Assembly: GCA_017399065.1 (NCBI GenBank)
Contig: JAFQEL010000033.1
Location: forward strand, 1-64,000
Source: Clostridia bacterium
GTDB lineage: Bacteria; Bacillota; Clostridia; Oscillospirales; Acutalibacteraceae
DNA: 64,000 bases
Direction: 5' to 3'
Part shown: piece after piece, positions 8,735 through 44,611 of the stretch
How positions within the stretch are numbered: position 1 is the first letter of the stretch
How the letters are laid out: every line of letters starts with the position of its first letter
Position numbers and translations under genes: made by a program
Notes under the pieces: model-generated
What the model saw: only the letters and a program-made list of their open reading frames with translations
Databases searched by the model: none
What the model was told of the DNA's origin: nothing

Positions 8735-8748
8735 AAGACTTCCTCCTT

Positions 8749-20422: not shown

Positions 20423-23400
20423 TTAATAAACTACTCTGTAGGAAACTGTTGTGCCGTTGCTCATCCAACCAGCTAAGTAGAGAGCCTCTACTGTGCAGGT
20501 ATATGTGTCAGCATGTGAGCAAGCAACTGTGAGAGTCCATGTGAGTGTACCGTCACCGTTGTCAACTGCTGTAGCAACATCCTTAGAGTAAGTCTGAACA
20601 GAACCGTACTGGTCAGTTACTCTTACGCCTGTAGCGAGTTTATCAGTTACAATTGTGAATGTCTGTGTGTTACCTCTGAGGACACGAGCCTTAGCTGTTG
20701 CAGAAACAACGATATCTGCATCATCACCTGTTGAGGGACCTGTGATAACAGGAGCAGCTGTTACTGTGAAGGTAAGGTCTGTGCCTTCGTCTGTGAGGTA
20801 GTTTTCAGAACCTGTTGTGTAGATGTCGAATGCGTAGTTGCCTGCATCGCACTTGCGTGTGATGAGCCATACCCAGTTGCCGTTTTCGTCCTGAGTAGCC
20901 TTTGAGCGGCTGTATGTTGATGTGCAGCCGTTAGACTTATCAACAAGTCTCATTCTGAGAGTGCTGGGACCGCAAACGATCTTGATAACTACTGTATCGT
21001 CAACTGTGAACTCTGTAACTGCTGCGTCGTCGAGGAGAACCTCTGCACTCTTGACGGAGTAGTCTTCGTCGGTCTTGGTTTCGATTGTGAATGCATAACC
21101 GTTGTCTTCCCAAACCTTACCGAGCTTTGCTTTTGCAACAGCATCAGCATTCTCGAAGTAAACCTTGTGAGCGATTGTCCATGTCTCTGTACCGTCGCCG
21201 TTATCCTTTACTGTAACAGCGGAGTGTGCACGGTGGTAAGTTGTTGTAGAACCGTTTTCAAAGACAAACTGAACCTTTGTAACGTTAGTAATGTTGCAAA
21301 CTACATCAAAGTTAACTGTATCGCCAACCTTGTAGTATTCCTGCTTTGCTGTAACGCTTGTAACGATTGTAAGCTCAGGCTCTACGGGAGGCTCTGTGGG
21401 AGCAAGCTCAAGAGCCTTGAATGTGGACTCGAGCTCAGCTGCTGCTGCTGCGATCTGTGCTGCAAGAGCTGTGTCGGAAGCAGGAGCGTTCTCGTTCTTA
21501 TCCTTAAGCATAGCCTGTGCACGCTCAAGAGCTGCTGCATAGGGCTCGTATGTTACTGCTGTATAATTATCAGCTGCTTCGGGAGTTGTGCCGTAGTTCT
21601 TGACTGCCTCTTCAAGAGCGGAGTAGTCGATGAATGCGGGCTCAAGCTTTGCGAATGCACTTCTGATTGCGGAAGCTGCATTTGCTACTGCATTGCGGTT
21701 AACCTCTGTATCAGCACCGGCACCCTTGTATGCCTGAACAAGAGCGTTACCTGCTGCAAGTTCATCCTGGAATGCTGCATAAGCTGCTGCATCGTAGTAC
21801 TCTGCACCGTAAGCAGGAACAGACTCTGCGATAGCTGCTTCAAGGTCAGAAACATCAACAAATCTTGCATCAAGTGCTTCGAAAGCTGCCTTGAGGTCTG
21901 CTGCAAGAGCGTCAACCTCTGCCTGCTTTGTTGCGGGAGCTGTTGCGTATGCTGTTACGCCTGCAACTGCTGCTGCAAGAGCATCTGTGTATGCTTCGTA
22001 CTCTGCTGCATCATAGTACTCTGCTGTGTACTCTGTATTTGCGTAATCCTTTGTAGCCTTATCAAGAGCTGTTACGTCAGCAAATCTTGCATCGAGTGCT
22101 TCGAAAGCTGTCTTGAGGTCTGTTGCGAGAGCGTCAACCTCTGCCTGCTTTGTTGCGGGAGCTGATGCGTAGGATGTTACGCCTGCAACTGCTGCTGCAA
22201 GAGCATCTGTGTATGCTGCGTACTCTGCTGCATCATAGTACTCTGCTGTGTACTCTGTATTTGCGTAATCCTTTGTAGCCTTATCAAGAGCTGTTACGTC
22301 AGCAAACTGAGGAACAAGATCCTCAAATGCGTTTCTTACTTGATCAACATATGTAGCAATTACCTGGCGGTTTGCTTCTGTATCAGCTGCTGCTCTGTAG
22401 GATATAACGATCTGGTTTGCATACATAACTGCCTGCTTGAATGTAGCAAGAGCCGTTGCATTATAATATTCGTCAGCATAAGCAGGTACACTTTCTGCAA
22501 TAACGTTCTCAAGAGGAGTTACGTCAACAAATCTTGCATCAAGTGCCTCAAAAGCTGTCTTGAGGTCTGCTGCGAAGGATTCAACAGCTGCACGGTTGTC
22601 AGCTGTATCGGGAGCCTGTGCAAGAGAGCTGAGAGCTGTATTAGCTGCTGCGAGAGCATCTGTGTATGCTGCATACTCTGTTGCATCATAGTACTCTGCA
22701 GTGTAATCTGTTGTGCCGTAAGCTGCGATAGCTTCGGAAAGAGCTGTTGTATCAACATAGTTAGCTGTGAGAGCCTCGTATGCTGCCTTGAGGTCTGCTG
22801 CGAGACCTGCAACTGCTGCACGGTTAGCCTCTGTATCAGCTGCGCCGTCGTAATCGATTACGCCGTCCTGAGCTGCTGCGAGAGCTGCCTGCCATGCTGC
22901 GTACTTAGCGGAATCATAATACTCGGGAGCCTGTGCGGGAGTCTTGTAAGCTGCGATAGCTTCTGAGAGATCTGATGTGTCAACGTATCTCTCGTAAAGC
23001 TCATCGTAAGCGTTTGTAAGAACCTCGGCTGCATTATCAATGATAGCCTGGTTCTCGTCACTCTTTTCGAGCTTATCTGCTGCAAGGAGGTCCTGTGCAG
23101 CCTTGAGAGCTGCCTTCCATGTAGCAAGGTCTGTGGGATCATAGTACTCTTCTGCTGAGTCAAGCTCTGAGCAGTTATTAACTGCCTGCTGAAGAGCAGC
23201 GTAATCGCAGTACTCGATGAGATCAAGAGCTGCCTTAGCATCTGTAAGAGCCTTTTCAGCTGCGTCGATCTTGCCCTGGTTTACGCCATCTGCATCCTGA
23301 ATCATGTTGGGAGTAACTGCCTTAGCTGCTGTGTAAGCTGCCTCGTAATCTGCCCAAGATGTAGCTGTGTAGAGAGCCTTGTCTGCAAGGTCTGTCTCGT

Positions 23401-24139
23401 ACTGAGCGATAGCTGCGTTAAGATCTGTGTAGTCGCAAGGAACTTCAGCAGCAGCTGACTTAACAACAAAGTTAATAACAGCACCGCTGACGTTGATTGT
23501 TTCGGGATACTGGGAAGCATCTGCTACAGTACCGTAAACGTCTGCGTTAGAAGCGACAGAAGCATAAATCTGTCTGAAACGAGCATTAGCTGTGGAAAGA
23601 CCAAGCATCTGCTCGGGCATAAGGAACTTACCTGTTGTGCCGTCTTCAAGACCTGCCTCAACTGTAAGGTCAAAGCTGTAGCTGAGAACAGGTGTAGAAG
23701 CATCTGTGGGAGTTGTGAAGTTTGTGTTGTATGCACGGCCGTAAAGGAAGCCTTCATAGCCTGATGCATAGTTTGAACCGAGCTGGTTTCCTGTTACAGG
23801 ATACTTCTGGTTAGGTGTGTAGTTATTGATGTGGTTGTGGAGATGCCAATCTTCTGTTGTAATTGATCCGAAGAAAGAATCAGTCCAAGCAAAGAGCTCA
23901 CTACCAACCGAACCGATATAGTAGTTTGTCTGTGTATAAACTTCAACCGTAATTTTTTCACCGGGTTCAACTTCAATAGCACCGTTTTCGTTTGCAGTCT
24001 TACCCTTGACAGTAGCTGTATAGGTAAGGACTGTGCCTGCCTTTTCTGTAAGCATTTCTGCACTTGCGGCAACTGCAACAGTACCAAGGACAAGCATAAC
24101 TGCAAGAAGAACACTGATTATTTTTTTAGTCATCTTCAT
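20423..24139 (-). CDS. Giant secreted protein: cohesin-like domain, nine FIVAR-type repeats, three beta domains
   Basis: Probably an extracellular scaffold or adhesin of 1238 residues. A signal peptide (1-28) precedes a beta domain at about 35-225, opening with VEPGEKITVEVYTQ and ending with a TINVSGAVINFVV strand, which resembles the cohesin fold. Nine helical repeats of about 75 residues follow (235-905), of the form D-x-TALxxAI, YYDxxEYAAYxxALAAA, DLKxAFEALDARF, as in FIVAR domains. A TEPP spacer leads to three beta domains (about 920-1238) sharing TYSR-type and NGDGTxTWT motifs. There is no LPXTG anchor and no dockerin. Repeats 6 and 7 are almost identical. It follows the phosphoesterase gene by 98 bp and may share its promoter. 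Confidence 0.65.
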   Translation of the reverse strand: MKMTKKIISVLLAVMLVLGTVAVAASAEMLTEKAGTVLTYTATVKGKTANENGAIEVEPGEKITVEVYTQTNYYIGSVGSELFAWTDSFFGSITTEDWHLHNHINNYTPNQKYPVTGNQLGSNYASGYEGFLYGRAYNTNFTTPTDASTPVLSYSFDLTVEAGLEDGTTGKFLMPEQMLGLSTANARFRQIYASVASNADVYGTVADASQYPETINVSGAVINFVVKSAAAEVPCDYTDLNAAIAQYETDLADKALYTATSWADYEAAYTAAKAVTPNMIQDADGVNQGKIDAAEKALTDAKAALDLIEYCDYAALQQAVNNCSELDSAEEYYDPTDLATWKAALKAAQDLLAADKLEKSDENQAIIDNAAEVLTNAYDELYERYVDTSDLSEAIAAYKTPAQAPEYYDSAKYAAWQAALAAAQDGVIDYDGAADTEANRAAVAGLAADLKAAYEALTANYVDTTALSEAIAAYGTTDYTAEYYDATEYAAYTDALAAANTALSSLAQAPDTADNRAAVESFAADLKTAFEALDARFVDVTPLENVIAESVPAYADEYYNATALATFKQAVMYANQIVISYRAAADTEANRQVIATYVDQVRNAFEDLVPQFADVTALDKATKDYANTEYTAEYYDAAEYAAYTDALAAAVAGVTSYASAPATKQAEVDALATDLKTAFEALDARFADVTALDKATKDYANTEYTAEYYDAAEYEAYTDALAAAVAGVTAYATAPATKQAEVDALAADLKAAFEALDARFVDVSDLEAAIAESVPAYGAEYYDAAAYAAFQDELAAGNALVQAYKGAGADTEVNRNAVANAASAIRSAFAKLEPAFIDYSALEEAVKNYGTTPEAADNYTAVTYEPYAAALERAQAMLKDKNENAPASDTALAAQIAAAAAELESTFKALELAPTEPPVEPELTIVTSVTAKQEYYKVGDTVNFDVVCNITNVTKVQFVFENGSTTTYHRAHSAVTVKDNGDGTETWTIAHKVYFENADAVAKAKLGKVWEDNGYAFTIETKTDEDYSVKSAEVLLDDAAVTEFTVDDTVVIKIVCGPSTLRMRLVDKSNGCTSTYSRSKATQDENGNWVWLITRKCDAGNYAFDIYTTGSENYLTDEGTDLTFTVTAAPVITGPSTGDDADIVVSATAKARVLRGNTQTFTIVTDKLATGVRVTDQYGSVQTYSKDVATAVDNGDGTLTWTLTVACSHADTYTCTVEALYLAGWMSNGTTVSYRVVY
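21858..22301 (-). repeat. Recent tandem duplication of one 222-bp FIVAR repeat unit
   Basis: Two adjacent 222-bp units encoding repeats 6 and 7 of the 1238-residue protein differ at only a few bases, while the other repeats are much more divergent. This points to a recent duplication in the gene. Confidence 0.7.
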
Positions 24140-24174
24140 TGAGTTGAGTTTCCTCCTTCAAAGTTTTATATCAG

Positions 24175-24201
24175 CCTGCCCGGCGGCAGAAGCCGGGCAG
24201 G
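24175..24201 (-). terminator. Intergenic hairpin, weak terminator
   Basis: Strong stem CCTGCCCGGC/GCCGGGCAGG but no T-run on the minus strand. It lies between the phosphoesterase gene and the 1238-residue protein gene, so read-through is likely. Confidence 0.45.
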
Positions 24202-24237
24202 TCAATACTTTGGGTTACATAATAAATCTGGCTTTAA

Positions 24238-27200
24238 TTATCTGACCTGGTTAACAGCATCTGTATTCCATGCAAGGAAGTTGTAGAGCTCGTTAAAGTC
24301 AGCGTATGTGATAGCGCCGTCACCGTCAAGATCCATTGCAATAGCGTTAGCCTCTGTCATAAAGTCATAATCAAAGGTGTAATCGTTCCATGCAATGTAG
24401 TTGAACGGGTCAGTAAGGTCACCGTAAGTGATAGCGCCGTCACCGTCGTTATCGCCGTAGATGACTACAATGTAGGTTGCAACGACTTCATTTGTCTTGT
24501 TGTTGATGAAGTCAACTCTTGTACCTGTACCGATGGTTGTGTTGTTGCCGAAGTATGTGTACTCAAGTCTGCCGTCACCTTCGATCTCAAGGAAGCCCTG
24601 AGAAACAAGGTCTGTAAGCTCCATATGGTCTGACCAAGCGTTTACGCCTGCACAGTCAAGACCTGAGATATAACCTGTTACACCTGCAGGTGCATTAGCT
24701 GTATCGATAACTGTTGTTGAGCCTGCCTTGATGTTGAGTACAAGCGGAACCTCTGCGGACTCGAGCTTTTCAACTGCGTCTGCAACTGCACCTGTAAGTG
24801 AATCGATTGCAGCCTGCTCATCTTCTGAGAGTGTTCTGTCAACATTCTTTGCTGCCTCGACAGCATCCTGAAGTGCTTCCCAAGTTTCGGGTGTGTAATC
24901 ATCCTTATTGAGTTTTTCTGCATCTTCAATTGCCTTGTCAAGTGCTGTGTAATCAGCGTACTTCTTAAGAGCTGCGACAGCTGCATTAAGAGCTGCTGCT
25001 GCGTTGTCAACAGTTGCCTGCTGGTCAACTGTGAGGTTCTTGTCTACTGCGTTAGCTGCTGCAAGAGCGGACTCAAGGTTTGCCCATGTAGTTGCTGTGT
25101 AATCATTCTTTTCAAGGCCGTTAGCCTCTTCGATTGCTGCGTTGAGTGCGGAGTAGTTTGCACCCTTCTTAGCGAGCTTAGCTGTTGCATCTACAAGGTC
25201 AGCTGCTGCTGTGTTGACAGTAGCCTGCTCGGAGTACTTGAGAGCGGGATCAGCGTCGCGAAGGTCAACTGCTGCGTTGTAAGCTGCTTCGAATGCTGCC
25301 CAGGAATCGTCTGTGTAGACGGATGTGTCAACACCTGCGATCTTAGCATCTGCTGCTGTGATAGCGTCCTTAAGTGCTGTGAGGTCAGCATCTGCTTCCT
25401 CAAGGCCAAGAACTGCATCGTAGATAGCCATAGCCATCTCTTCGACCTTCTCCTGGTCGCCTATCTTGAGTGTACGGTCAACTGCTGCGAGGGCATCGTC
25501 AAGAGCCTTCTTTGAAGCAGGTGTGTACATTTCGGGAGTTGTGTAGTACTCTGCAGGAATCTGCTCGATTTCCCAATCAACGTTGCCGTAGAGAGCGGGA
25601 AGGTTTGCAAGAGCTGCGTTAAGAGTATCGGCTGCTGCCTGAATCTCTGCGTTGTTGCGGATATCGAGCTCGCCGTTGTCGTACTTTGTAAGGAGAACCA
25701 ATGCTGCCTGATAAGCTGCATCAACGTCTTCGTATACGTCAACGATACCGTCTTCGTCTGTATCTGTGGGATACTCTGCCTCGTATGCAAAGTAGTCTAC
25801 TGAGTAGTAGTTGAGCTCAGCGTCTTCGAGAGGCTCGATATTAGCATCGACATACTCGAGAGCTGCGATAGCTGCTGCAAGAGCTGTCTCCTGCTCGTCT
25901 ACGAGTGCCTGCTGCTGGATATTTACCTTCGGCTCTGCATTGTAGAATGCAAGAGCTGTGTTGTAAACAGCGAGGAAGTTAGTGTAGCTGCCGGGTGTGT
26001 AGAGGTTCTGGTTTGCAATAACCTCTGTACCTGTTGTGATCTGAGCGTTGAGCTTTGTATAGTCAGCGTCTTTAAGAACGAGGCCTGTGAATGCTGCCTC
26101 AAGAGCTGCTGCCATTGCGTCAACTTCAGCCTGCTTTGTGATGTCGAGACCCGGTTCAACAGAATCTACAACAGCCTGAAGGTCTGCCCAGTTCTTATAA
26201 TCGTCCTTTGTGGACTCAATAGCTGCGATTTCTGCAAGCCACTTGTTAACAAGAGTGTAATCAGCATCGTTGTAAACAAGGCCTGTACGTGCATCGTAAA
26301 CTTCCTGTGCAACAGCGTTAACTGTTACCTGCTCACCTGCCATGTAGCCGTAGTCATAAGCTTCGTCTACTGCTGCACGAGCATCAAGAAGTCTCTGCCA
26401 TGATTCAGGTGTGTAGTACTTTGCGTACTCATCTTCGTACTGTGCCTTGATAGCCTGCTGCTCGAATGCAAACTTGAAGTCTGCAGCGTTGAGGTAGTTA
26501 CCAAGGGTTACGTAGATAGCATCGATCTCTGCGTTAAGAACGTCAACCTCTTCCTGCTGAAGGATGTAGAGGCCTTCCTTCTTCTCAGCAATCTTTGCAC
26601 GGAGCTGAGCAATACGCTCCTCCTGGTAGTAAGTGATTGTGTAGTTGTTTTCAGCATTTGACGGGTCAATAACGTCAACTACTGTATCGATATTCTGTGT
26701 AGAATCAGCGATAGTCTGATTGAGCTGTGTATAGTCAGCTGACTTGAGCTCAAGGTTGTTGTATGCTGTCTGAAGAGCATCTCTGTAGCCGTCAACTGTG
26801 GGCTGGTCGGGCATCTTAAGGCTACGGTTTGTCATAGCGGGTGCACAAGCGTTTGCCCAGTTGTTGTAGGACTCAGTTGTAAAGTACTCCCAATCTACAT
26901 CTCTGTCGTCGGCACCGACAAATTCATACTTCTCAAGGTCGGGAAGTATGATTGTAAGACCGCCGTAAGAGCCGTTGGGGTTAGTACCTGTCTTGTTTTC
27001 AAGAAGTGCGTCTACCTCAGTGTAGTCTGCATCACGAAGCTGAGCAGATTCCCAACCGATACATACAAGTTCATAGTATGTTTCAACTACATCCTGATAG
27101 CGTATATCAAGATTCCAGTTAATGTTATTAATCGGGATGTCAGTTTCGTTTGTTGAACGGAAGTAGTACCACGGATAGTACTGCTCGCGTGAATAGTAAA

Positions 27201-30200
27201 GCGGGTCAACATCGGGGTGAGGTCTGTACTCGTACAGATTTGCACCTGTTTCGGGGTCAACACCAAGGAAGCCACGAATTTCGTCAACCTTTGCCTGAAG
27301 CTTCTTGTAATCAGCAGGTCTGTACTCAAGATTGTCAATAGCTGTCTGGAGAGCTGTTGCTGCTGCTTCGTTCTCAGCACCTGTGAGTGATGCATCGTTT
27401 ACAGCGCCCTTTGCCTTAGCGAGAGCGTTTACATATGCAGTCCACTTGCCGTTAGTGTCTGAGTAACCGTCCTCATACTGACGGAACATCTCATTTTCCT
27501 GAGCGACAAGGTTACGAAGATCTGTCTTATCAACTGTTGTAAGGTTGATGTGCCAAGAATAGTGACAGGTAAGAGCACGTTCCTTCGAGCTTTCACACCA
27601 GAAGTATGTGTAATATGTGTAACCGCCGTTTGCAAGACCGGGAACCTGCAGATACTTGAAGAAAGCATCACCCGCTGTTGTGCTGATTGTATTGTTGCCG
27701 CGTTCTGTACCGTCAAGGTTCATTGCTGCGGAGTTGAGGTTGCCGAGTTCACCGCCGTATGCGCCGTGATTACCCTGACCCTCATAATAGGTTTCATGAT
27801 TCTGCTGATAGTTTTTAGCTTCGTTTTCGCCTGCCAGACCAAGGCTGTTTGCAACAAACATGATCTTTGCATCTGTGATGTCTGAAACAACCGATGAGTC
27901 AAAGTAGACGCTGAACTTTGCTCTTGCACCTACGTCCTCAGTATCGTTTTCACCATCAGAACCTGCGTACCAGCCGCCGTTATTGTTTCTTGACGGACCG
28001 GTCCAGGAGTTGATACCGAAACCGCTTACTTTCTGGCTGCCGTCGCCTGAGAAGTTTGTGAGGTTAACACCGTAGTAAGTGTTATCGTAGCCTGCGTTAC
28101 CCTGAAGTGCTTCGTACTGGATACCGTCTGCCGGTACACCTTCGGGAGCGAAGAACAATGAAGTAAGCTGAGATACGTGAGGATCCCAAACAAGTGAGCC
28201 TCTGTTACGTCTGATGAATGTAAGCCAACCTGAAGCCTGAGGAGCATCAGTAACTGTTGATGCCTCAATCTGAGTGTAGGACTTACCTGCAAGCTCGTAA
28301 GTGAACTTGTAAGTAACTGTATCACCTACGTTAGCTGTACCGCCTGTAACCTTACCTGTAGCCGTACCGGGATCCCAAGTGAAGGTCATAGCTGTACCTG
28401 TATTCTGGTTAATAACCTCAACAGTTGCATTTGTTGCACCGTTGGGAAGTGTAACCTGGAAGTTGGAGTAATCAATCAGCGCTCTTGTGCGATAGTTGAT
28501 GATCTGGGGAACGACTGTTGTACCCTTGGGCTGTGCGGAGAGGCCGTAGCCTGAGCCTGCAACATAAAGCTTTGAGGGAACAGTTGCGTTCATATAGTAC
28601 TCGCCGTTACCGGAGATCTCTGCACCTGTGAAGCTGAGACCCTCAATAGCCTTCTCAAGTCTTGACTTAGCTGCGTTGATCTCAACCTGAGTTGTGTCGG
28701 GCTTCTGAATCTGCTTGAAAGCCTCTCTGAAAGCTGTACGGTAAGTCTGAGCCTTTACGTCTGTCTCGTCAAGCTGACGGTTTGCAGTTCTTTCTGCGTT
28801 AAGAAGGGTACGAAGCTCTGCCTTATCGTATGTAATGAACTGGAGCAGGACAGGCATGAATGTATAAACATTTGTAGCATACAAACCGCCGTCATAGTAA
28901 GTGGGAGCGTAAGAAATAAGTGTGTAAATTGTGCCGCTCTCGGGGAGTACATTACCTGTGATGTTGTTGGAAACGTTAGAACCTCTTCCGTATGCAAGAG
29001 TAACGCTTGCATTCTGAACAGAAATAGTAGAAGAGCCTACTGTATTTGTGTTCCATGTATCATATGTATAGCTTGCATCACCGGCTTTGAAAGCAAACTG
29101 GAAGGGTGTATTGATATTATGCTGGGGAGTATAGTGTCTCCAGTAGTTGACAGAAACACCGAGGCTTGTAATTGTACTGTGCTCTGCCTTATCAGCATAA
29201 ATTGTAGCTACGGGTGACTTGCCTGCCTCCTGGAAACGGGGGAACTCAGCGTGAGTTCTGATACGTGAGGGAGAACAGAAGTTCATACCGTAGGAAATAT
29301 CCTTCTGTACGAAGCCCGCATCCGCAGTCTCTGTGTAGTTGTAGTAACCTGCGGGAGCGTTAGTCCATGAGCCGAGGTCAGCGTAAGCACTATCGGTTGT
29401 TGTACGTGCTCTACCGTAAACGTTAGGACCTGTAACGGTCATAACATAGGTCTGGGTATTCCAGTAAGCATCGTTACTATCCATAAGGCCGCCGTAGTTA
29501 CGTACATATACGTAGTGACCTGCGGGGGACTTGATATTGTCTACATAGCTGTATGCATACTGAACATAGTGAGTACCACCGAAGTCATACTCTACCTTGA
29601 ACTCAGCTGCTGTACCTGCATTTGCAGTACCGCCTGTGATCTGCCATGTATATGTATTGGTAAGCTCGCCCGCTGTAACTGTAACACCGCTGAGATTGAT
29701 ACCTGACTGAGGTGTGATTGTTACATTAGTAGCGTTCTTATCAAGGTCAATAGTGACAGCAAGGTCGTTGGGGTACATAGCCTGTGTCTTGTGGTTGAGA
29801 GACTGGAGCTGGATTGTTGAACCATACTCCTGCTTTGCAATGCTGTTGTCTTCAGCACCGACATAGAGAACCTCGGGGACTGTGGGAGTACCGGAGATAA
29901 CGTCGTGCTCATAGTCTTCGCCCTCTTCAACCTGCATCTGTGTGTAAGAAACAGACTGAGTTGTGTATGTACCGTCTTCCTTGATTGTGAAAACGCGGAG
30001 TGCGGGGTCTTCGTCAGCTGCGTGGTAAGCTTCAAGAGTAGCAGCCTTACAGTAACCCATTGTGATACCGTTAGCATCAGTACCGACAAATGTATTTGTA
30101 TGGTCGTGACCGAAGAAAGCACCTACGTGGTTACCGACATCAAGCCAACCCTGATACTGGAAGTTGTTGATAGCAGCAGGGCAAGGACCCTCCTGCATAA

Positions 30201-31014: not shown

Positions 31015-31137
31015 ACTATATTCCTCCTTGCAAATAGAAATACAAATTCCGCAACAGCACAGTGCAGTAAAACCATGCCTTATAAGACATGTCCTAAAAT
31101 TAGAGATACTGCCACGTATGCTATTATAGGTATAATT

Positions 31138-31166
31138 ATTCTATCACGGTGTGCAACACTTGTCAA
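31138..31166 (-). promoter_or_regulatory. sigmaA promoter of metallophosphoesterase gene
   Basis: Minus-strand TTGACA, 17 bp, TAGAAT: consensus -35 and a near-consensus -10. Confidence 0.8.
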
Positions 31167-31484
31167 TTGGTTATTTATTGTTTTTTATATTAAATATATA
31201 TAAAAGTTTTCGACATTTGTACATCTTCCACAAATATTTTGAGTTACTATTGAGCAAAGTGTCAATTAAGAAAATTTTGCCGCGAAACAAACCAAAAAGC
31301 ACCCCGAAATCGAGTTAAACTAATAAATACATAGTGTTTTTATTCTGATAGTGAAAAATAGCAAACGGTAAAAGATAAAATATATCGCAACTTTAAGAAT
31401 GTAAGACGCAGATACATTATCGTCGCAGCAGCCTACCTCTAATGAACAAAAAAATTTTACCGGCATATTAAATATCATTCAGAG

Positions 31485-31523
31485 CAAAAAGGGAAGCGCC
31501 CCGAAGCCGAAGCCTCGGGGCGC
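31485..31523 (-). terminator. Terminator of the 1518-residue protein gene
   Basis: Stem GCGCCCCGA/TCGGGGCGC followed on the minus strand by TTCCCTTTTT. Confidence 0.75.
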
Positions 31524-31553
31524 GGGGTTTTAGTTTGGAGAAACTACAGTTGA

Positions 31554-34500: not shown

Positions 34501-36110
34501 TTAGCCTGAGCGATAGCTGCATCAAGAGCTGTGTAATCACATGCGCCGAGCTTTGTAAGGCCTGTGATAGCTGCGTTAAGTCTTGCTGCTGCTGCGTCGA
34601 TGATAGCCTGGTTTTCACCAGCTTCATCTGCGATCATGTCACGAGTAACTGCCTGTGCTGCTGCAAGAGCTGCGTTGAACTCTGCTACAGAAGCGGATGT
34701 GCAGTTTGTTGTGTCAGCTGTTGCTGCTGCTGCGATAGCTGCATCAAGAGCTGTATAGTTACATGTGCCAAGCTTTGTAAGGCCTGTGATAGCTGCGTTA
34801 AGTCTTGCTGCTGCAGCGTTGATAGCATCCTGCTCTGTTGCAAGTGTGCCTTCAACGTTGAGAGCCTGTGCTGCTGCGAGAGCTGCGTTGAACTCTGCTA
34901 CAGAAGCGGATGTGCAGTTAGCTGTGTCAGCTGTTGCTGCTGCAGCGATAGCTGCCTGGAGAGCTGCAAGGTCTGCATACTCTACGGGAGGCTCTGTGGT
35001 GGGAGGCTCTGTGGTTGTATCGTCCTCGCCGCCTGCTGCGTCGCCAACTGTGATTGTTGCGTTTGTAACAATCCAGTTCTTGTCAGCAACTGTGCCATCA
35101 CCGTATGTTACCTTATTTGCATAAGTTGTAAGACCGGAAGCACAAACCTGAGGCATAGACTCATCCCAGTTACCGTTAACATTGGGGCTGTCCTGAACTG
35201 CCTCATATGACATTGCTGTGAACTGTGTGTAAGCGTTTGTTGTGTTGTAATAGCTGGAAAGGGGGTAGAAGAGCTTAGCTGTGCCTTTTGCATCCTCAGC
35301 AACTGTGAGGTTGAAAACTGCGATAGGCTGGTAAACGTTAAGAACTACACCAAAACCTGTCCATGCTTCGGAACCGGAAGCGTTGTTACCCATACCCATC
35401 TGGTAAACGTTGTAGATAAGGTGGCCGTTTTCGTCAACAATGCTGTTGCCCCACTGGTCAACTGCTGCTGTGTTGATCCAAGTGCCTTCAGCTGTACCCT
35501 TACCCTGCCAGTCCTTGGGAAGAACGCCACGAAGGCCTGACCATGAGTTGTGGTTGATCTGACCCTTAGCCTGTGTAAGAGCCTCTGTTACGAAAACAGG
35601 GTTCTCAAAGGTACCGTCGCCTGTGCCGTAATCGGCGCAGAAGTCAACCATCTTCGGATAGTCATCCATTGCTGTCTTACCTGCTACGTTAGCAGCCTTA
35701 AGGGGGTAAGATGCTGTAGATGTAACAACGGAGTAATCCATTTTTGTGGGAAGAAGCCACTCGTTATTATAAGCGGGTGTAAGCTGAATGCCGATTGTGT
35801 GGAAGTTGGTCTGTGCCCAAGTTTCAACACGAAGAACATCGCCTGCTTCTACGTTGACATCGAGTGTGTCATTTGCAGCGTTTGTGTCTGCAAGAAGTGT
35901 GTACTCGCCGGTTGATGTGTTGACCTTATAAATCTTGAAGCCCATCTTTACAGTGTAAGGATTGGTTTCAGGATTAATGTCTGCACAATCATCCCAAGTA
36001 AGATTATCAACAGATTCATCAAGCTGAATAGCGCTTGTGCTGATGACAACCATACCCACGAGCATTGCTGCTGCAAGAACAATTGCAAGCAGTCTCTTTG
36101 TGAGTTTCAT
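31554..36110 (-). CDS. Giant secreted protein: cohesin-like domain, 13 FIVAR-type repeats, beta domains
   Basis: A 1518-residue export product, Ala-rich and acidic, probably a surface stalk or scaffold. Signal peptide about 1-27. The N-terminal beta domain (about 45-365) opens with VEAGDVLRVETWAQTNF, has AVFNLTVAEDAKGTAKLFYP late and closes with NATITVGD, like the opening, penultimate and last strands of a cohesin. A TTTEPPTTEPP spacer precedes 13 helical repeats of 65-75 residues (377-1300) of the type YTALDAAIAxA, SxAEFNAALAAAQ, AAAARLNAAITGL. The C-terminus has two beta domains (about 1305-1518) with the TYTRTK and NGDGTLTWTI motifs shared with the 1238-residue protein. No dockerin or LPXTG. 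The start is at ACCAAGGAGGACTACAGCAA plus ATG. Confidence 0.65.
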   Translation of the reverse strand: MKLTKRLLAIVLAAAMLVGMVVISTSAIQLDESVDNLTWDDCADINPETNPYTVKMGFKIYKVNTSTGEYTLLADTNAANDTLDVNVEAGDVLRVETWAQTNFHTIGIQLTPAYNNEWLLPTKMDYSVVTSTASYPLKAANVAGKTAMDDYPKMVDFCADYGTGDGTFENPVFVTEALTQAKGQINHNSWSGLRGVLPKDWQGKGTAEGTWINTAAVDQWGNSIVDENGHLIYNVYQMGMGNNASGSEAWTGFGVVLNVYQPIAVFNLTVAEDAKGTAKLFYPLSSYYNTTNAYTQFTAMSYEAVQDSPNVNGNWDESMPQVCASGLTTYANKVTYGDGTVADKNWIVTNATITVGDAAGGEDDTTTEPPTTEPPVEYADLAALQAAIAAAATADTANCTSASVAEFNAALAAAQALNVEGTLATEQDAINAAAARLNAAITGLTKLGTCNYTALDAAIAAAATADTTNCTSASVAEFNAALAAAQAVTRDMIADEAGENQAIIDAAAARLNAAITGLTKLGACDYTALDAAIAQAKALDENDYTSTSWYSQAYLTSYLDAAEAVARDMVADEAGENQAIIDNAKDALLAAIAMLELRADFTALKAAIATAATADTANCTAASVAEFDAALAAAQELADSESSIGESRQAEVDAAAARLNAAITGLTKLGGCDYTALDAAITAYDALDKNAYTPNSWTASDVDALAAAAKAVARDLIADEAGANQATINAAADALDAAIKALVKVADKAALAAAIAAAPTDADAYTPDSWAAADLANVLAAANAVNADANATQADVDAQVAAIAAAVAKLALKADKAALAEAIAAAKTLDANDYTPDSWAAANLEAVIAAAEAVNADGNASDADVTAAIQSLRDAALLLEEKADTEALEEAIDTLPAIAEDDADPESWAAYEAALAAAELVFADPNATQAEVDKAEADLLAAISAVKEKDVVYCDYSALDEAIAAFEALVEAEYTPASYATVKAYYDAAKAVTRDMEYTVEAQDEIDFAADELNNSIALDLVKVADKTALKAAIDTVVDTANCTSASIAKYNAALADANAVYADANATQQAVDAATEALVAAQQLEKLPKVDYSDLEDAMAKFEALDATEWTDDSYAAAQKAYDAAAELVEADLYDDEQGENAGLVDEATDALNAAIAALEKAVDKTALKAEIDKAPSVEENLATDETWADYADALANAQDVYADDAATQNEVDAAAAELAAANAALATRGLVDYTALDAALALVPALGQDEYTAKSWKAYADAKAAAEAIARDLIDDKAGANQKTVDDAAAALDAAYKALTENKANITDVKYDNTGVYTTGTLKYDFYVNGAASKIQILAPDGGTMTFDRRSSRVTIVSYNEAGEVVDYAEEDPAYEVWSINLGLVATEYQVRAKYDYTWDTEYYAFTVEYAPYNTTAESFTATVGEYVDATEVVAAKGEVITFKAVTDSNAIKVQFVFADGGTSTYTRTKAVDNGDGTLTWTITRVFKQNVDINLRVKAPTGWATEYSGNVVVTMA

Positions 36111-36179
36111 TTGCTGTAGTCCTCCTTGGTATTTTTTAATTTAGCCGCGTTAGCGGTTAGATTACCGAAACTGTTTTTG

Positions 36180-37301
36180 TTATCCCGGCATATGCAGCTG
36201 CATATTAAGGGTATAACTAATGTTGTAGTTGTACAGGTCAGATGCTGTACTGATATCATTGATATCGACTGTAATTGTCGAGGGATCGTCAGCTGTGACA
36301 TCACCTGCATAGCAACGTGCACCTTCAAACTCACGTGTGAAGTTGTACATATCAGACATATCAGAGATATCGTTAATTGTAGTTTCACCGTCGCCATCTG
36401 TGTCACCGAAGAAGATGATCTCATAGCTGGCGTATTCTTCGCCCTTTAAGTCGTACACTGTTACGACTGTACCTGTGGCGAACATATCCTGTGAAACTGT
36501 GTATGTTCCGTTATTTACGACGAACTGATCCTGGAAGTTGCCACCTTCTTCAATAATAGCAACAGGATCGAAGCCGCAAAGATACTGATTCTCATCACCA
36601 TCAAAGGTCATAAGAGTAACACTGAAGCCGTCAGCTGCAACAAGCTCGGGCTCAACATATGCGCTACCGAGGCTGTAGCTGACAGGGTCAGCAAAAGTAA
36701 AGTTGAAGGGTGTTGCTGAGTTGTAATAAGTCATAGCATCGGACGGATCATTAACACCGGAGTAGTAATAACCGTCGTAGTCAGCGGGGATAAGCACGGT
36801 ACCTGTGCCTGTTGCGGAATCCTTAACCTTGAGCTGAACGGTGAAGCAATCAGCTGCAACACCTGAGCTGAAGGAGCCGATGCCGTTGTCAGCAGTAGCA
36901 CCTGCGATCCACTGGATACCAATGACACTGTGAGTAGCTGAGTAAGCTGAAGGAACAAAGCTTGAATCAGTTGTAGTAGTTGTTGTGCCGGGTACAGCTG
37001 TTACACTGTCGATGGGTGATGTAACGCTGCCGTCAACAAGCTCAAAGAAGTCTGTTGAGTAAAGAACGGGCCAGAACATTGTTACCGCATTGTAATTGTT
37101 CGAAAGACGAACAGTAAAGGTTACAACATCGCCGGGCTGTACTTCGTCAGCTGAAGCTGTAAGACCGATGCTCATAGCCTCGTTGCCCGTAGGTGTGCCG
37201 CCGAACGAAGAATCGATAGCAACACCGTTAAAGCAAAGGCAGGAAATGAGCATAGAAGCAACAACAATAACCGCTGCAAGCTTATTCAGTTTCTTAGTCA
37301 T
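36180..37301 (-). CDS. Secreted cohesin-like plus dockerin-like protein
   Basis: A 373-residue exported protein that looks like an adaptor scaffoldin. Signal peptide about 1-29. One cohesin-like domain (about 40-215): VQPGDVVTFTVRLSNNYNAV, then YSTDFFELVDGS, and ADCFTVQLKVKDSATGTGT near the end. A beta module (about 220-290, with YLCGFDPVAI and TGTVVTVYDLKG) precedes a dockerin-like pair: GDTDGDGETTINDISDMSDM, then GDVTADDPSTITVDINDIS. The second loop has an insertion in the calcium site. In Ruminococcus flavefaciens ScaC has one cohesin and one dockerin and links enzymes to the scaffold; that is the analogy. It lies 69 bp before the 1518-residue gene and 104 bp after the 1571-residue gene. 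Confidence 0.7.
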   Translation of the reverse strand: MTKKLNKLAAVIVVASMLISCLCFNGVAIDSSFGGTPTGNEAMSIGLTASADEVQPGDVVTFTVRLSNNYNAVTMFWPVLYSTDFFELVDGSVTSPIDSVTAVPGTTTTTTDSSFVPSAYSATHSVIGIQWIAGATADNGIGSFSSGVAADCFTVQLKVKDSATGTGTVLIPADYDGYYYSGVNDPSDAMTYYNSATPFNFTFADPVSYSLGSAYVEPELVAADGFSVTLMTFDGDENQYLCGFDPVAIIEEGGNFQDQFVVNNGTYTVSQDMFATGTVVTVYDLKGEEYASYEIIFFGDTDGDGETTINDISDMSDMYNFTREFEGARCYAGDVTADDPSTITVDINDISTASDLYNYNISYTLNMQLHMPG

Positions 37302-37325
37302 TGTGTAGCCCCCTTTGGGAGTTAA

Positions 37326-37369
37326 AGTAAAACTCTCCGAAGAAGCCGGAGAGGAATCTCCGGAGAGTT
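37326..37369 (-). terminator. Hairpin after the 1571-residue protein gene
   Basis: Stem AACTCTCCG/CGGAGAGTT, with an internal CTCCGG repeat, followed on the minus strand by TTACTTT. Probably a partial terminator before the adaptor gene. Confidence 0.6.
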
Positions 37370-37405
37370 GATATTGGGTTTATGCTGATAGTTGTGAGCT
37401 AAATA

Positions 37406-40400
37406 TTAGCCCATGAATGTACCGTCCTGAGGAACTGAGTACGGATCAAGAGTGTAGTTGTACATATCGGACATACTACCGATATCGTTAATATCGATCA
37501 TATCATCACGAACAACGTCAGCACCGTAGAAATATGCATTGTTTGCAGATGCATTGTCGTTTGCCCAGTTATACATATCGGATGCCTCGGAGATATCGTT
37601 AGTATCAACCATAGCATCACCTGTTGCATCACCGAAGAGAACGAGATAGTAAACTGTACCGTCATCAAGAGTGATCTTATCGCCTGTTGCGAGAGCACCA
37701 CCGGAGTTTGCGTTTGCCTCAAACTCGTAGGAAGCGCCACCCTGTGTACCAACGATTGACTCAATACCATCGTAGTAGTCGAATACAAGACCGCAGATGT
37801 AGCTGTAAGTAATGTCTGTCTCGTAATCAGGCTCCATCATTTCATTGATAACTGTTGTCCAGGAGTAGCCATATGTGCCTTCAAGGTCTGCGTAACCGCC
37901 AAGCTCTGTTGTGTCAAGGAGCTTGAGGCCTGCCTCGAGCTGCTCGAGAGCTTCAAGAGCTGCGTTAAGGAGAGCTGCGATTTCGTCTACTATTGCCTGG
38001 CCGTCTTCAGCGAGGAGGTCTCTTGCAAGAGCAATAGCCTCATCGTATGCTGCCTGGAGGTCTTCAAGACCTGCGTACTTCTCTTCGTAGTTTTCTTCTG
38101 CGAAGATAGCTTCTGCTGCGAGGATAGCTTCATCGAGCTGTGCATAGTCAGCAAGAGCTGCGCCCTTGAGTGTAAGACCCTTGTAAGCCTGGATGAGCTC
38201 ACGACGAGCTACGTTGATCTTGGACTGCTTGAGATTTGCATAATCAGTATCTGCACGGACTGTTCTTGCAAATGCAAGAGCTGTCTCAAGTGCTTCCCAA
38301 GAAGCTGTTGTGTAATCGTCGGGATTAAGCTCGGAGTTATACTTGCTGTTGATAAGGTTGTATGCGTTGTTGAGGTAGTTCTTGGAATCTGCTGTAACAG
38401 TCTTGGGAAGAAGACGCTCAGCATTCATTGTGTACATATGACCCTTATATGTGATCTCGAAGAGTGTAAGAGTCGGGATGTTAGCGAGTGCTTCCTCGTA
38501 AGCCTTAAACTCTTCCTCAGTTGCATCCTCACCGGGCTCCTCAACCTTCTGAGAATTGATAAGGGACTTGATGTCGCTTCTGTGATCTGCATAACGGTTG
38601 TATGTGTAGAGCACATAGTCTGCGTCTGCGAAGAAGAAGTAATCATCATCTGTGTAGACCTTACCTTCGTTGTCGCCTTCCATAGCGAGGAGAGCCTGCT
38701 CAAGAGACTCAACGCCTGCGCCCTCAGCACATGCATCAAGGTCTGCGATAGCTCTGGAGAGATTCTGAGCTGCTGCCTCATAAACGGAAGCATCGAATGT
38801 TTCCATTCTCTGGGGCTTAAGAACGATTGCCTGTGCAGCTGTAAGAGCATTGAGGTAGTTATCCCATGCGTTTGCAGCGTTTACAGTGTAAGTTGTTTCG
38901 TTACCGTCCTTATCCTTCTCAACGTATGTGAATGTGCCGCTGGAAGCGAAGTTATTCTCCTGACGGTTTGAGCCGAGAGCGGAGGAAACGATATTGGGAA
39001 GATTGTAGTCGTTGAAGACATAGAGCTTACGGCCAACTGTGAACTGAACTGGATCCATGCCGTCCCATGTCTCTGTAACGTTGAATGTTGTAGCGAAGTC
39101 GTATACGCCTGCGCAATCTGCAAGAGGCATATCCTCCTGATACTCGTTACCCTGAGAATCAGTAAGTGTTACCTGAGGAACAACTACGTCGAAGAAATCG
39201 ATAGAACCGAAGTAACCACCGTACTGAGTTGTGATGGGCTGGAAGCCTGCGTCAGCAACGAGAACACCCTCTGCAGTTGTCTCGAACTTAACGAATGTTG
39301 TTGTAGCGTCCTTGTTCTGAGCAGCGTTTTCGTCAACTGTTGTACGACCGTAGTCGAAGCTGAGATCGCCGATTGCACCCCAACCCTCGGATGAACCGAT
39401 GAATGCTGCGGGAGCATTTGCGATGTAGTGGTTGTTAACGCCACCTTCATCGCCGTAACCGTCAACCCAAACAATGGGGAATGCTTCGAGACCGTTTGCT
39501 GTCTGCTGCATCTCATAGGAGATAGCGTCTGCATCTTCGTCAGAAACCTGAGAAGCAACATATGTGAACTGATATGTTGTGATAGGCTCTGCTGTAAGTG
39601 ACTTACCGGACTCGTCAAGGATTTCGTATGTAACTGCGAAACGAACGAGACCGTCTGCGCTAAGGCTACCTGTTACGGGGAATGTCTTGGACTCACCACC
39701 GTTAAGGAGTGTGTTAGCTGTGTAAGTAACGTTAACTGCTGAGTTGTTTGTTGTGATGCTCTTGATCTTAATCTGGTAGAGAGCATCCTGATGGAAATCG
39801 CCGTTCTTGTCAGTGTAACCTGTGTTAACACCTGTGGAGTTGTTACGAACAACAAACTCTGTACCGGCGAGTGTGCGTGTTGCACTGATGATAACGTCAT
39901 CATACTCGATTGAGGGATCTTCAAGCTCCTGATCGCCTGTAAGACCAAGGATCATAGATACGAGCGGAAGAGCACCGGGGATAAGATTCTGACGAACACT
40001 GTAGAGACCTGTAAGAAGGCCCTTGATGATATCGCCGAGAGTCTGGTTAGTTGCGATTGAATCGAAGTTAGCAAGACCCTGAGGAATTGCACCGGGAATG
40101 ATAGCGTTGAGAATGTTTGTAACAAGACCAATGAGAACATTGGACATTGTGTTGTTAAGAGTACCGGATGCGTTTCTGTCGAAAATATCGAAGATATGCT
40201 CGATCTTGAGGTCGAGGATATTACCGATAATGAAGTCGATAAGAATGAACTGTGAACCTGTTACCTTTGCATCTTCGACAACGCCGTCGTCGTTAACGAC
40301 ACGGAGATTCTCGGGAAGCCAGTTAAGCGGGATGAGTGTAAAGAGAACATCATCAAGCTTCTGCCATGCTGTGAGGTTAGGATCGATCTGGCTTGTGTAG

Positions 40401-42121
40401 TAAAGGATACCGCCGTAGTTCTGAAGTGCCCAGTCTACTGCATGAGAGATTGTAGCATCAAAGCCGAGACCTGCGGGAATATCCATATTTGTGTAAGCGT
40501 TAGCATAGTATCTTGCAACGATAGCAAGAACTGCCTGCCAACCTTCGTCAGTTTCGGGGTTGAGCTCACCGGACTGAAGCTTTGCATAAACGTTCTCTTC
40601 GGGAACGAGGTCAGCAATAAGCTCGCAGAGTGCGTAAGCAAGAATTGAGCGAACTGAGTTAGCTGTATCGGGAAGGATGATATTGTCTGCATATCTTGCG
40701 ATAGCATCTTTACCGAAGAAGATAACTGCATCTTCAAGTGTTGCGAAGGAGTCAATTACTTCGTCCTCGGGGATTGTGATGTATTCGCCAAGGAATCTTT
40801 CACCGTAAACCTTGAGAAGCTTCTTAGCATTGTTAAAGAGGTTTGTGATGATCATATCGTTAGAGCCTGCTTCCCAAACAAGTTCGGGAGACTTAGCTGT
40901 AACCATGACATCAAGCCACTCTTTAAGAATGTTGTTGAAGTTTGTGAAGAACTGCTCGCCGGGCTGGAAGTTATGAGTCGGGATGACGTAGTTAAGGTTG
41001 ATAACATCAGCAAGCTCGTTAAATGTACCGTTCTCCATATTTGCTTCGTAAACGCTCTTTGCAGATGCGTCGTAGATGTAGGGAGCCTTACGGAGAGAAG
41101 TGAAAGCTGCTGAATCGTCCATGTAGTAACCGACCTTTACAAGTACGGGTGTACCGTCCTCGTTGAAGACCTGGTTGCCGTCGCCATCATACTCGTATCT
41201 GTAAATCTTCTGAGACTCATCGTACTCAGCCTGAGCAAGGTCATAGATCCACTCCTTGATCTTGGTGTTACCCCACGGAACAAGGAAGTTGTTGTATGCG
41301 TACTGAAGTACTGACTCAAACTGATCATAGAAGGAACCTTCGTCGATATCGATGAGGTTGGAGAAGTCGTATGTAATGCCATACTCAAAAGACTCTTCAA
41401 GCTCATCCTCGAGGTCGATGAGAAGGTCGTCGATGATGATCTGGAGCATCTGGTCGATTGTGGGCTTAACAGCGAGATCCTCGTACTCGACATAGTCGGG
41501 AGCATCATCGTCGTAAGCGAGATCGTAGAGGAGACCTCTGATAAGGTTGGGAGCATCAAGGTACTCTGCAACAGAGTCACCGAGAAGACCTGTGAGTGTG
41601 GGGCCAAGGTCAAGTGTGCCGTAGCCGTACTTAGCAAGGAGATTTGCGTTGTCGTTCAGGAAACCGAGAACGGAATAAAGAACGTCAAGGTCTGACTTGC
41701 CGGGTGTGGTTCTTCTGCAGCCGTTTGCTGCAAAGTTACCGTCGGGGTTGGTATTAAGAGATGCAAAAGAAAGCTCTTTACCAACGTCACCTGCGATAGC
41801 AACAGCTGTGTTCCAAACACCGCCATTGTAGATATCTTCAAGTGAATCAAGTGCAACGTCGATGCTGCTGAAGTTAAGAGTAACGTTGAGGACAGGAATC
41901 TTGAAGGAGTTAGTTTCAAGATCTGCAAGAAGTCCGTCAATAGCATCGAGAGCGATTGAAGCAAGCTGCTCTGTTGTGAAAACAGGCTTGTCAATACTGT
42001 CGTACTTTGTGATAGCATCGTCCTTATAATCTGCGTATGCTGCCGATGCACCAACTGCAAAGGTCGAGAATACCATGATCATAGCAAGGAGCATGCTAAG
42101 GAGTTTTTTGGATTTACTCAA
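37406..42121 (-). CDS. Giant secreted protein with large unknown N-terminal region and C-terminal dockerin-like module
   Basis: A 1571-residue export product. Signal peptide about 1-28. About 30-720 is a mostly helical, acidic region I do not recognise; 740-1050 is beta-rich. Three or so FIVAR-type helical repeats follow (about 1080-1390, ending ALNAALEALEQLEAG). A pre-dockerin module (about 1395-1490, YICGLVFDYYDG) leads to a dockerin-like pair: GDATGDAMVDTNDISEASDM and GADVVRDDMIDINDIGSMSD. The first codon is probably TTG at 42121, 8 nt after CGGAGG; an in-frame GTG at 42130 overlaps the ribosome site itself. It has a consensus promoter and a structured leader of about 300 nt. Confidence 0.68.
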   Translation of the reverse strand: MSKSKKLLSMLLAMIMVFSTFAVGASAAYADYKDDAITKYDSIDKPVFTTEQLASIALDAIDGLLADLETNSFKIPVLNVTLNFSSIDVALDSLEDIYNGGVWNTAVAIAGDVGKELSFASLNTNPDGNFAANGCRRTTPGKSDLDVLYSVLGFLNDNANLLAKYGYGTLDLGPTLTGLLGDSVAEYLDAPNLIRGLLYDLAYDDDAPDYVEYEDLAVKPTIDQMLQIIIDDLLIDLEDELEESFEYGITYDFSNLIDIDEGSFYDQFESVLQYAYNNFLVPWGNTKIKEWIYDLAQAEYDESQKIYRYEYDGDGNQVFNEDGTPVLVKVGYYMDDSAAFTSLRKAPYIYDASAKSVYEANMENGTFNELADVINLNYVIPTHNFQPGEQFFTNFNNILKEWLDVMVTAKSPELVWEAGSNDMIITNLFNNAKKLLKVYGERFLGEYITIPEDEVIDSFATLEDAVIFFGKDAIARYADNIILPDTANSVRSILAYALCELIADLVPEENVYAKLQSGELNPETDEGWQAVLAIVARYYANAYTNMDIPAGLGFDATISHAVDWALQNYGGILYYTSQIDPNLTAWQKLDDVLFTLIPLNWLPENLRVVNDDGVVEDAKVTGSQFILIDFIIGNILDLKIEHIFDIFDRNASGTLNNTMSNVLIGLVTNILNAIIPGAIPQGLANFDSIATNQTLGDIIKGLLTGLYSVRQNLIPGALPLVSMILGLTGDQELEDPSIEYDDVIISATRTLAGTEFVVRNNSTGVNTGYTDKNGDFHQDALYQIKIKSITTNNSAVNVTYTANTLLNGGESKTFPVTGSLSADGLVRFAVTYEILDESGKSLTAEPITTYQFTYVASQVSDEDADAISYEMQQTANGLEAFPIVWVDGYGDEGGVNNHYIANAPAAFIGSSEGWGAIGDLSFDYGRTTVDENAAQNKDATTTFVKFETTAEGVLVADAGFQPITTQYGGYFGSIDFFDVVVPQVTLTDSQGNEYQEDMPLADCAGVYDFATTFNVTETWDGMDPVQFTVGRKLYVFNDYNLPNIVSSALGSNRQENNFASSGTFTYVEKDKDGNETTYTVNAANAWDNYLNALTAAQAIVLKPQRMETFDASVYEAAAQNLSRAIADLDACAEGAGVESLEQALLAMEGDNEGKVYTDDDYFFFADADYVLYTYNRYADHRSDIKSLINSQKVEEPGEDATEEEFKAYEEALANIPTLTLFEITYKGHMYTMNAERLLPKTVTADSKNYLNNAYNLINSKYNSELNPDDYTTASWEALETALAFARTVRADTDYANLKQSKINVARRELIQAYKGLTLKGAALADYAQLDEAILAAEAIFAEENYEEKYAGLEDLQAAYDEAIALARDLLAEDGQAIVDEIAALLNAALEALEQLEAGLKLLDTTELGGYADLEGTYGYSWTTVINEMMEPDYETDITYSYICGLVFDYYDGIESIVGTQGGASYEFEANANSGGALATGDKITLDDGTVYYLVLFGDATGDAMVDTNDISEASDMYNWANDNASANNAYFYGADVVRDDMIDINDIGSMSDMYNYTLDPYSVPQDGTFMG

Positions 42122-42380
42122 GTTGTACACCTCCGTAAAATTTTTTGCGGGTTGCCCCGTCTATGCTCGGCACCCTTACGGGCGGCCAAATTGCCGATAG
42201 GGAATTTAATTTGCTTGCCGCATTCCTCCTTCTCATTCTTGCCGCAAAAACCAATCTGCCGTTTAGGGTAGGCCGAAGGCACTGCACATCAACTGGCTGC
42301 CGTCGGCATACTGTTTGCTTTTCAGCATGACCGGTTTTCGACGGCGGGTTTAATTGGCAGAAGCAATTTAACTAATTCTG

Positions 42381-42430: not shown

Positions 42431-42460
42431 ATATTAGTACTTTTCAAGGGCATTTGTCAA
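42431..42460 (-). promoter_or_regulatory. sigmaA promoter of 1571-residue protein gene
   Basis: Minus-strand TTGACA, 18 bp, TAATAT; a TATAAT lies 3 bp further downstream. Confidence 0.65.
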
Positions 42461-44527: not shown

Positions 44528-44611
44528 CACATTACATCCTTTCAAGTATTGAAAAAAGATTATACACTACTTTACGACAAAAGTAAATACAAGACGGAAA
44601 TTAAACCCGTA

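Follow-up and report, generated by a model that had tools for sequence, protein, structure and literature searches.

Does a block of five large genes in a clostridial genome encode a surface complex that is built from the parts of a cellulosome and serves a purpose other than the degradation of polysaccharides? Most of what is known of cohesin–dockerin assembly comes from machines that degrade glycans, and cohesins and dockerins are said, in work from 2009 (cited in PMC2930009), to occur outside cellulosomes as well. The window analysed here is a stretch of 64,000 nucleotides from a Clostridia bacterium, taken from a 2.64 Mb draft genome whose nearest named relatives are uncultured Clostridia and Oscillospiraceae genomes, of which several stem from the hindgut of ruminants (goat, sheep and water deer). 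Cohesin-type folds were computed for the 373- and 1238-residue proteins of the block, dockerins were found on the 373-, 1571- and 2258-residue proteins, and the set is conserved. We consider it fairly probable that the locus encodes an exported cohesin–dockerin assembly devoid of glycosidase, with 1518 and 1238 as receptors and 373 contributing a second cohesin (proteins are named by their length in residues).

Organization of the locus

Five large open reading frames (1238, 2258, 1518, 373 and 1571 residues) lie on the minus strand at 20423-42121, each with an N-terminus resembling a signal peptide and a good ribosome-binding site, in agreement with an earlier note on this DNA, which had read five exported proteins in the block (Table 1). 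The start of the 1571 gene is readable both as GTG at 42130 and as the codon at 42121, and the latter was preferred for its better fit to the ribosome-binding site. The genes seem to fall into two transcription units, 1571-373-1518 and 2258-1238, with a strong hairpin and promoter-like site in between; these terminator- and promoter-like calls are consensus matches, and the total number of such sites is at chance level. Note that dnaA and dnaN are located at 61118-63884, which places the five-gene locus ~20-40 kb from the likely replication origin.

Table 1. Coordinates of the locus, its domains and its upstream neighbours in the window
Feature	Position	Strand	Characteristics
1571-residue secreted protein	37409..42121	-	signal peptide, ~850-residue N-region, 2 FIVAR-type repeats, X-module, dockerin
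373-residue protein	36183..37301	-	predicted cohesin, X-module and dockerin
1518-residue putative receptor	31557..36110	-	cohesin-like N-domain, 13 FIVAR-type repeats, 2 Ig-like C-terminal modules
2258-residue secreted calcineurin-like phosphoesterase	24238..31014	-	FIVAR-type repeats, X-module, dockerin
1238-residue putative receptor	20423..24139	-	cohesin-like N-domain, 9 FIVAR-type repeats, 3 Ig-like C-terminal modules
Cohesin domain of 373, slowly evolving	36657..37196	-	AlphaFold2 model; weak PF00963 matches in orthologues
Cohesin-like domain of 1238, fastest evolving	23435..24058	-	AlphaFold2 model; structural matches
Cohesin-like domain of 1518, fast evolving	35016..36029	-	profile only
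Dockerin of 1571	37451..37630	-	loops DATGDAMVDTND and DVVRDDMIDIND
Dockerin of 373	36207..36404	-	loop 1 canonical (DTDGDGETTIND), loop 2 with 4-residue insertion
Dockerin of 2258	24274..24459	-	two canonical calcium loops, near-symmetric repeats
Ig-like C-terminal modules of 1238 (three)	20426..21373	-	candidate surface-attachment module
Ig-like module pair of 1518	31557-32189	-	C-terminal; related to the 1238 modules
Terminator-like hairpin, 12 pairs	31496..31523	-	after the 1518 gene; consensus match
Promoter-like site TTGACA-17-TAGAAT, TG	31138..31166	-	before the 2258 gene; consensus match only
Promoter-like site	42431..42460	-	before the 1571 gene; consensus match only
CpsD/Wzz-type tyrosine kinase	42740-44545	-	upstream neighbour of 1571
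CpsB/CapC phosphatase	44612-45373	-	upstream neighbour of 1571

Cohesin-type domains and dockerins

None of the five window proteins passed the cut-off of the Pfam Cohesin model and a phmmer search of 373 against solved chains gave no match; 373 orthologues in several genomes matched PF00963 weakly but repeatedly below the cut-off (0.0016-0.009). The AlphaFold2 models of 373 (12-sequence alignment, pLDDT 88) and of the 1238 N-domain (14 sequences, pLDDT 83.6, pTM 0.85) both display a cohesin-type beta-sandwich. For 373, the top solved match in Foldseek was the cohesin-X-dockerin chain of Clostridium thermocellum CipA (4fl4_C, 1.3e-8), followed by cohesins; re-alignment gave 6kgf_C as best match (Z 14.7, rmsd 2.3 over 142 residues), and the structural match list is made of cohesins at Z 10-14.7 with the adhesin domain CLIPPER as sole exception. 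For the 1238 domain, Foldseek placed the Ruminococcus flavefaciens ScaC cohesin first and ScaE second, and 6kgf_C was again the best match after re-alignment (Z 12.6, rmsd 2.4 over 140 residues); here cohesins extend down to Z ~9.5 and unrelated pilins appear at ~9.4, so the margin is modest. The earlier reading of these two N-termini as cohesin-like thus held at the level of the predicted fold, the best matches of both models being cohesins and not a different fold that would have spoken against it. In addition, a profile of the 1238 domain (A4) matches the 373-family cohesins at 4.4e-6 and a homologue (L089) at 5.1e-5, the latter passing Pfam Cohesin itself at 2.6e-6.

The same claim made for 1518 holds in part, as its N-domain would be joined to the cohesin group by profile only and over a portion of its length: hhalign of the 1518 and 1238 domains, with signal peptides removed, matched over part of the domain. 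Profile A7 matches 1518 orthologues at 3.4e-5 to 0.016 and, compared with solved cohesins by sequence alone, yielded nothing significant (best 0.1). A tandem cohesin pair was observed in two relatives (G004 and G005).

The C-terminal ends of 373, 1571 and 2258 are real dockerins with calcium loops. Above the cut-off, Pfam Dockerin_1 was found in the window on 2258 only (6.8e-5), and orthologues of both 373 and 1571 pass this model. The 373-family profile matches solved dockerins at 3.3e-15, and that of the 1571 family (A9) does so with a best value of 3.6e-8, the 1571 profile also matching Clostridium perfringens 2jnk at 0.0022; phmmer of the 2258 C-terminus returned mostly calmodulins. Two repeats of calcium loop and helix were recognised in each of the three dockerins, for which missing loops would have been a counter-argument; the helices of 373 are present in its AlphaFold2 model, and in loop 2 of 1571, as read from its letters, the third position is not acidic. 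Co-variation between the two repeats was observed in each dockerin (1/5040, 1/5040 and 1/120 permutations, hand-cut segments), as expected for dual binding. An X-module directly precedes the dockerin in 373, 1571, 2258 and other dockerin proteins of the genome, so that the pair of beta module and dockerin described in the earlier note was recovered in all three.

Dockerin-bearing proteins and the absence of glycosidases

Pfam revealed neither a glycosidase nor a carbohydrate-binding module in the five window proteins, each cohesin-bearing one having a single cohesin. One Metallophos domain was found, in 2258 (6e-10), consistent with the claims that the set holds no glycosidase domain and that one client is a phosphoesterase. 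This domain displays the metal motifs of calcineurin-like phosphoesterases (GDN, GNHD, QHI and GHDH), its first motif reading DIQ and not DxH, and phmmer found no solved relative. At the genome scale, a glycosidase was detected by Pfam in 0 of the 13 Dockerin_1 proteins, a count that could miss divergent dockerins scoring below the model. These 13 proteins include 2258 and proteins with BspA-type leucine-rich repeat, subtilase, M23 peptidase, Big_2 or InlB-type repeat domains, and most of their dockerins belong to a distinct NDAFL class. Large NDAFL-dockerin proteins, most with a hydrophobic C-terminal tail, are encoded at L055, L057, L058, L059, L060, L063, L064 and L065. On another contig of the genome (C3, L062:6883-9036), a canonical 317-residue cohesin-dockerin protein adjoins a 387-residue phosphoesterase with 32% identity to that of 2258, forming a second cohesin/phosphoesterase pairing; the dockerin of this 317-residue protein falls into the NDAFL class and differs from those of the locus.

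A similar picture was obtained in the relative G134 (L243-L256), in which 15 or more dockerin proteins are encoded, almost all of them having a single dockerin motif in common, SxDAG..VD.EN. Among the 15 examined, 4 carry Metallophos, others LRR_5, BspA-type repeats or DUF6273, and none a glycosidase. Note that the window itself encodes a GH43-family protein without dockerin (7655-8899).

Conservation of the set among genera

Within the genus, the order MetK–CpsB–CpsD kinase–1571–373–1518–2258–1238 is kept wherever contigs reach, indicating that the arrangement is not due to chance; the kinase is listed in G003, G004 and G005, and the ORF filter may have hidden it in other genus members. The search of other genomes proposed in the earlier note also showed that 1571, 373 and a receptor follow one another, as a trio in this order, in six further genera of the family. 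There, the gene for a 1571-like protein with a dockerin precedes one for a 373-like protein with cohesin and dockerin in seven genomes (G208 and G095 from one genus, G225, G154, G176, G130 and G134). The third gene is receptor-like with a divergent cohesin-like N-domain in G208, G095, G225, G176 and G134 (truncated), this N-domain being judged by eye in G208 and G134; the G154 contig ends before the third gene, and the third protein of G130 gave no match to the cohesin profile. Only the unit 1571-373-1518 recurs in other genera, and 2258-1238 does not. More broadly, 1571 has some match in 20 of the 135 family genera sampled, a few of these being dockerin-only, and full-length relatives of 373 were found in the order-wide sample only in this family.

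As side observations, large ORFs that resemble, to the eye, cyclic glucan synthase/GH94-type proteins lie directly upstream of 1571-like genes in other genera (L161, L165 and L167), and G004 encodes an extra 556-residue protein (L052:12392-14062) that combines a cohesin-like domain of the 1518 type with one FIVAR repeat and with an X-dockerin almost the same as in the adjoining 373 orthologue.

Dockerin co-variation, divergence rates and pairing

The dockerins of 373 and 1571 are far more alike within a genome than between genomes. A first co-variation test used hand-cut helix segments and was repeated with automatic segments and an X-module control. In the genus, the within-genome match was the best of 720 permutations (X-module control, 195/720); over 14 genomes, it was reached in 0 of 20,000 permutations (X-module, 8,537/20,000), and for the seven genomes outside the genus, in 20 of 20,000 (X-module, 3,282/20,000). 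Two genomes are exceptions, G004 and G130, in which the two dockerins mismatch (ranks 11 and 8 of 14). In G134, the dockerin motif of the trio is common to many unlinked dockerins, and the 373/1571 match is consequently not private there. The 2258 dockerin showed no co-variation with those of 373 and 1571 (hand-cut segments) and is a separate class. These patterns suggest a single specificity common to the dockerins of 373 and 1571 and particular to each lineage.

When compared to the nearest relatives (G010 and G001), the 1571 N-region is 85-87% identical and the 373 cohesin 85-88% (85% with G010), against 45-46% for the 373 dockerin (46% with G010), 59-62% for the 1571 dockerin and 52-61% for the 1518 cohesin (52% with G010). 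With G010, the phosphoesterase is 93% identical, the 2258 dockerin 30% and the 1238 cohesin 34%, the last being the fastest evolving, with 33-34% even against a close relative; the 1518 cohesin-like domain ranges from 29 to 61% between orthologues. Among distant genus members, the 373 cohesin retains 51-57%, like the 1571 N-region, versus 24-33% for the 373 and 1571 dockerins. Receptor cohesins thus change at about the pace of the dockerins, and the 373 cohesin at the background rate.

On the simplest reading, 373 and 1571 would be cognate to 1518, and 2258 to 1238, a pairing based on divergence rates (mainly from one or two close genomes) and the adjacency of the genes; these two groups coincide with the two transcription-unit-like halves. 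Since the 373 and 1571 dockerins appear to share a specificity, 373 is probably no link between 1571 and the receptor; both would rather occupy the same receptor cohesin, and the background-rate cohesin of 373 would serve another partner. The earlier proposal of receptors, an adaptor and clients therefore stands as to its parts and not as a linear chain, because the shared dockerin specificity suggests other wiring.

Proposed assembly and alternative explanations

We propose that 1518 and 1238 act as stalked receptors, held at the cell surface via their Ig-like C-terminal modules. The 1518 cohesin would bind the matching dockerins of 1571 and 373, and the 1238 cohesin that of the phosphoesterase 2258. 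373 would then present a second, slowly evolving cohesin able to recruit another, more conserved dockerin, possibly on other dockerin proteins (BspA-type leucine-rich repeat, subtilase, M23 peptidase or Big_2). Together, these proteins would form a modular array at the cell surface, made of a phosphoesterase and of proteins resembling adhesins, built as a cellulosome is and not intended for degrading polysaccharides, each lineage having its own dockerin/receptor specificity. The cellulosome-like assembly with a different job suggested in the earlier note is thus retained for its cohesin and dockerin parts and its lack of glycosidase, and abandoned for its linear wiring.

The shared specificity of the 373 and 1571 dockerins would also fit a head-to-tail fibre, in which the 373 dockerin binds the 373 cohesin and 1571, through its like dockerin, caps the filament; in its favour, too, the trio of the other genera has just two cohesins and two like dockerins. 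However, the 373 cohesin is far better conserved among distant genus members than these dockerins, and the cohesins that keep about the dockerins' pace are those of the receptors, so that a fibre seems quite unlikely. The same similarity could result, with no shared partner, from gene conversion or a recent duplication of the module, for which the adjacency of the 373 and 1571 genes and the near-identical dockerins of 373 and its 556-residue neighbour in G004 would speak. Yet it ends at the X-module boundary, and identical residues share codons at about chance level in nine genomes, which argues against recent gene conversion and renders this origin highly improbable.

Other explanations concern the role of the domains themselves. 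The N-domains may be adhesin or ligand-binding domains with a cohesin fold, the dockerins binding cohesins located elsewhere, such as the 317-residue protein of contig C3: function does not follow from a common fold, the structural matches include the adhesin domain CLIPPER (9ifr), and one canonical cohesin is indeed encoded elsewhere in the genome. We regard this as unlikely, given that cohesin-like and dockerin domains co-occur in one locus across genera, that receptor cohesins and linked dockerins diverge fast in parallel, and that the C3 protein's own dockerin differs in class from those of the locus. Finally, the set could belong to a polysaccharide-degrading complex, i.e., a reduced cellulosome or mucinolysome whose enzymes are encoded elsewhere and dock through the 373 cohesin, as the closest architectures are cellulosomal and a cellulosome-like mucin-degrading system has been described in another gut clostridial genus (PMC12997984). 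The lack of glycosidases on the 13 Dockerin_1 proteins here and on the 15 of G134, counts from which divergent dockerins could have escaped, makes this very unlikely.

Coming back to the glycosidase-free receptor assembly, a more daring extension, which we hold to be tentative and unlikely, is that it represents a system of surface assembly found throughout the family and distinct from glycan degradation, with receptor-cohesin/dockerin interfaces that are hypervariable in step and private to each lineage. Indeed, the interfaces are 30-52% identical between genomes whose other proteins are 85-93% identical. If true, private specificity could insulate parallel assemblies, mark kin or evade an antagonist.

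Relation to known cohesin–dockerin systems

CipA of C. thermocellum is a multi-cohesin scaffoldin with a carbohydrate-binding module. Its cohesin-X-dockerin portion (4fl4 and 3kcp) is the best Foldseek match for the whole-chain architecture of 373, which has one cohesin, unlike CipA. In C. perfringens, FIVAR-dockerin and cohesin modules are used outside cellulosomes (2ozn, 2jnk, 2jh2 and 2w1n); our locus shares with these complexes the non-cellulosomal use and the FIVAR repeat beside the dockerin, but the C. perfringens parts are found on glycosidases, whereas here they are found on a phosphoesterase and uncharacterised proteins, together with stalked receptors.

In R. flavefaciens, cohesin-dockerin adaptors, X-dockerins and dockerins on leucine-rich-repeat proteins were described, and the authors suggested that some dockerins may structure the cell surface (PMC4081043, PMC2930009). 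As in its ScaC, an adaptor here has a single cohesin and a dockerin, with an X-module before the dockerin, and the ScaC and ScaE cohesins are the top structural matches of the 1238 domain. In contrast, R. flavefaciens docks many glycosidases and its ScaE is covalently anchored to the wall, whereas here none of the detected dockerin proteins has a glycosidase, and the five proteins showed no sorting signal. The mucinolysome of Limousia, a cellulosome-like assembly of a gut clostridial genus with dockerins on mucin-degrading glycosidases and peptidases (PMC12997984), is comparable as a cellulosome-like assembly with another job, but differs in that our set has no glycosidases. These three (ScaC/X-dockerin, C. 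perfringens and mucinolysome) are the nearest systems.

Of two hallmarks of cellulosomes, dockerins on plant cell wall glycosidases were absent from all 13 Dockerin_1 proteins, and a scaffoldin with several cohesins and a carbohydrate-binding module was absent from the window. The set probably works like a cellulosome scaffold and is not a cellulosome; what distinguishes it from known systems is that the locus, and apparently the whole genome, keeps the scaffold without glycosidases. The new elements are the recurrence of the trio in six genera, the co-variation of the 373 and 1571 dockerins and the fast divergence of dockerins and receptor cohesins. A literature search of partial coverage, with few subscription papers, for dockerins with metallophosphoesterase, phosphoesterase or BspA gave nothing relevant. 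A glycosidase-free scaffold in several gut clostridial genera would show a general way to build bacterial surfaces, and dockerins and receptor cohesins that change rapidly and in a matched way would offer a natural series of possibly orthogonal pairs, useful for designed assemblies.

Stalks, possible surface attachment and neighbouring genes

FIVAR-type repeats, counted with a profile built on the 1518 repeats, number 13 in 1518, 9 in 1238, several in 2258 and 2 in 1571; Pfam FIVAR was found in 2258 and 1518, the 1238 repeats falling below the model. The FIVAR stalks attributed to 1238 and 1518 were recovered by this profile. The N-region of 1571 (~850 residues) had no match in Pfam, NCBIfam or solved structures.

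Several other secreted proteins of the genome also end in Ig-like modules of the 1238/1518 type, which makes these modules candidates for surface attachment. The genome has two sortases; no C-terminal sorting signal was seen in the five proteins and no SLH domain in the genome, and anchoring of 1518 and 1238 through the Ig-like modules is hence a guess. Near-identical C-terminal pairs of such modules were also observed at several contig ends of the genome (L195, L198, L199 and L200), which suggests a repeated gene family that broke the assembly.

Directly upstream of the locus, the CpsB/CpsD phosphatase-kinase pair (42740-45373) is kept in the genus, and no exopolysaccharide synthesis genes were recognised near it. 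The CpsD-type kinase ends in a long, Tyr/Gly-rich tail.
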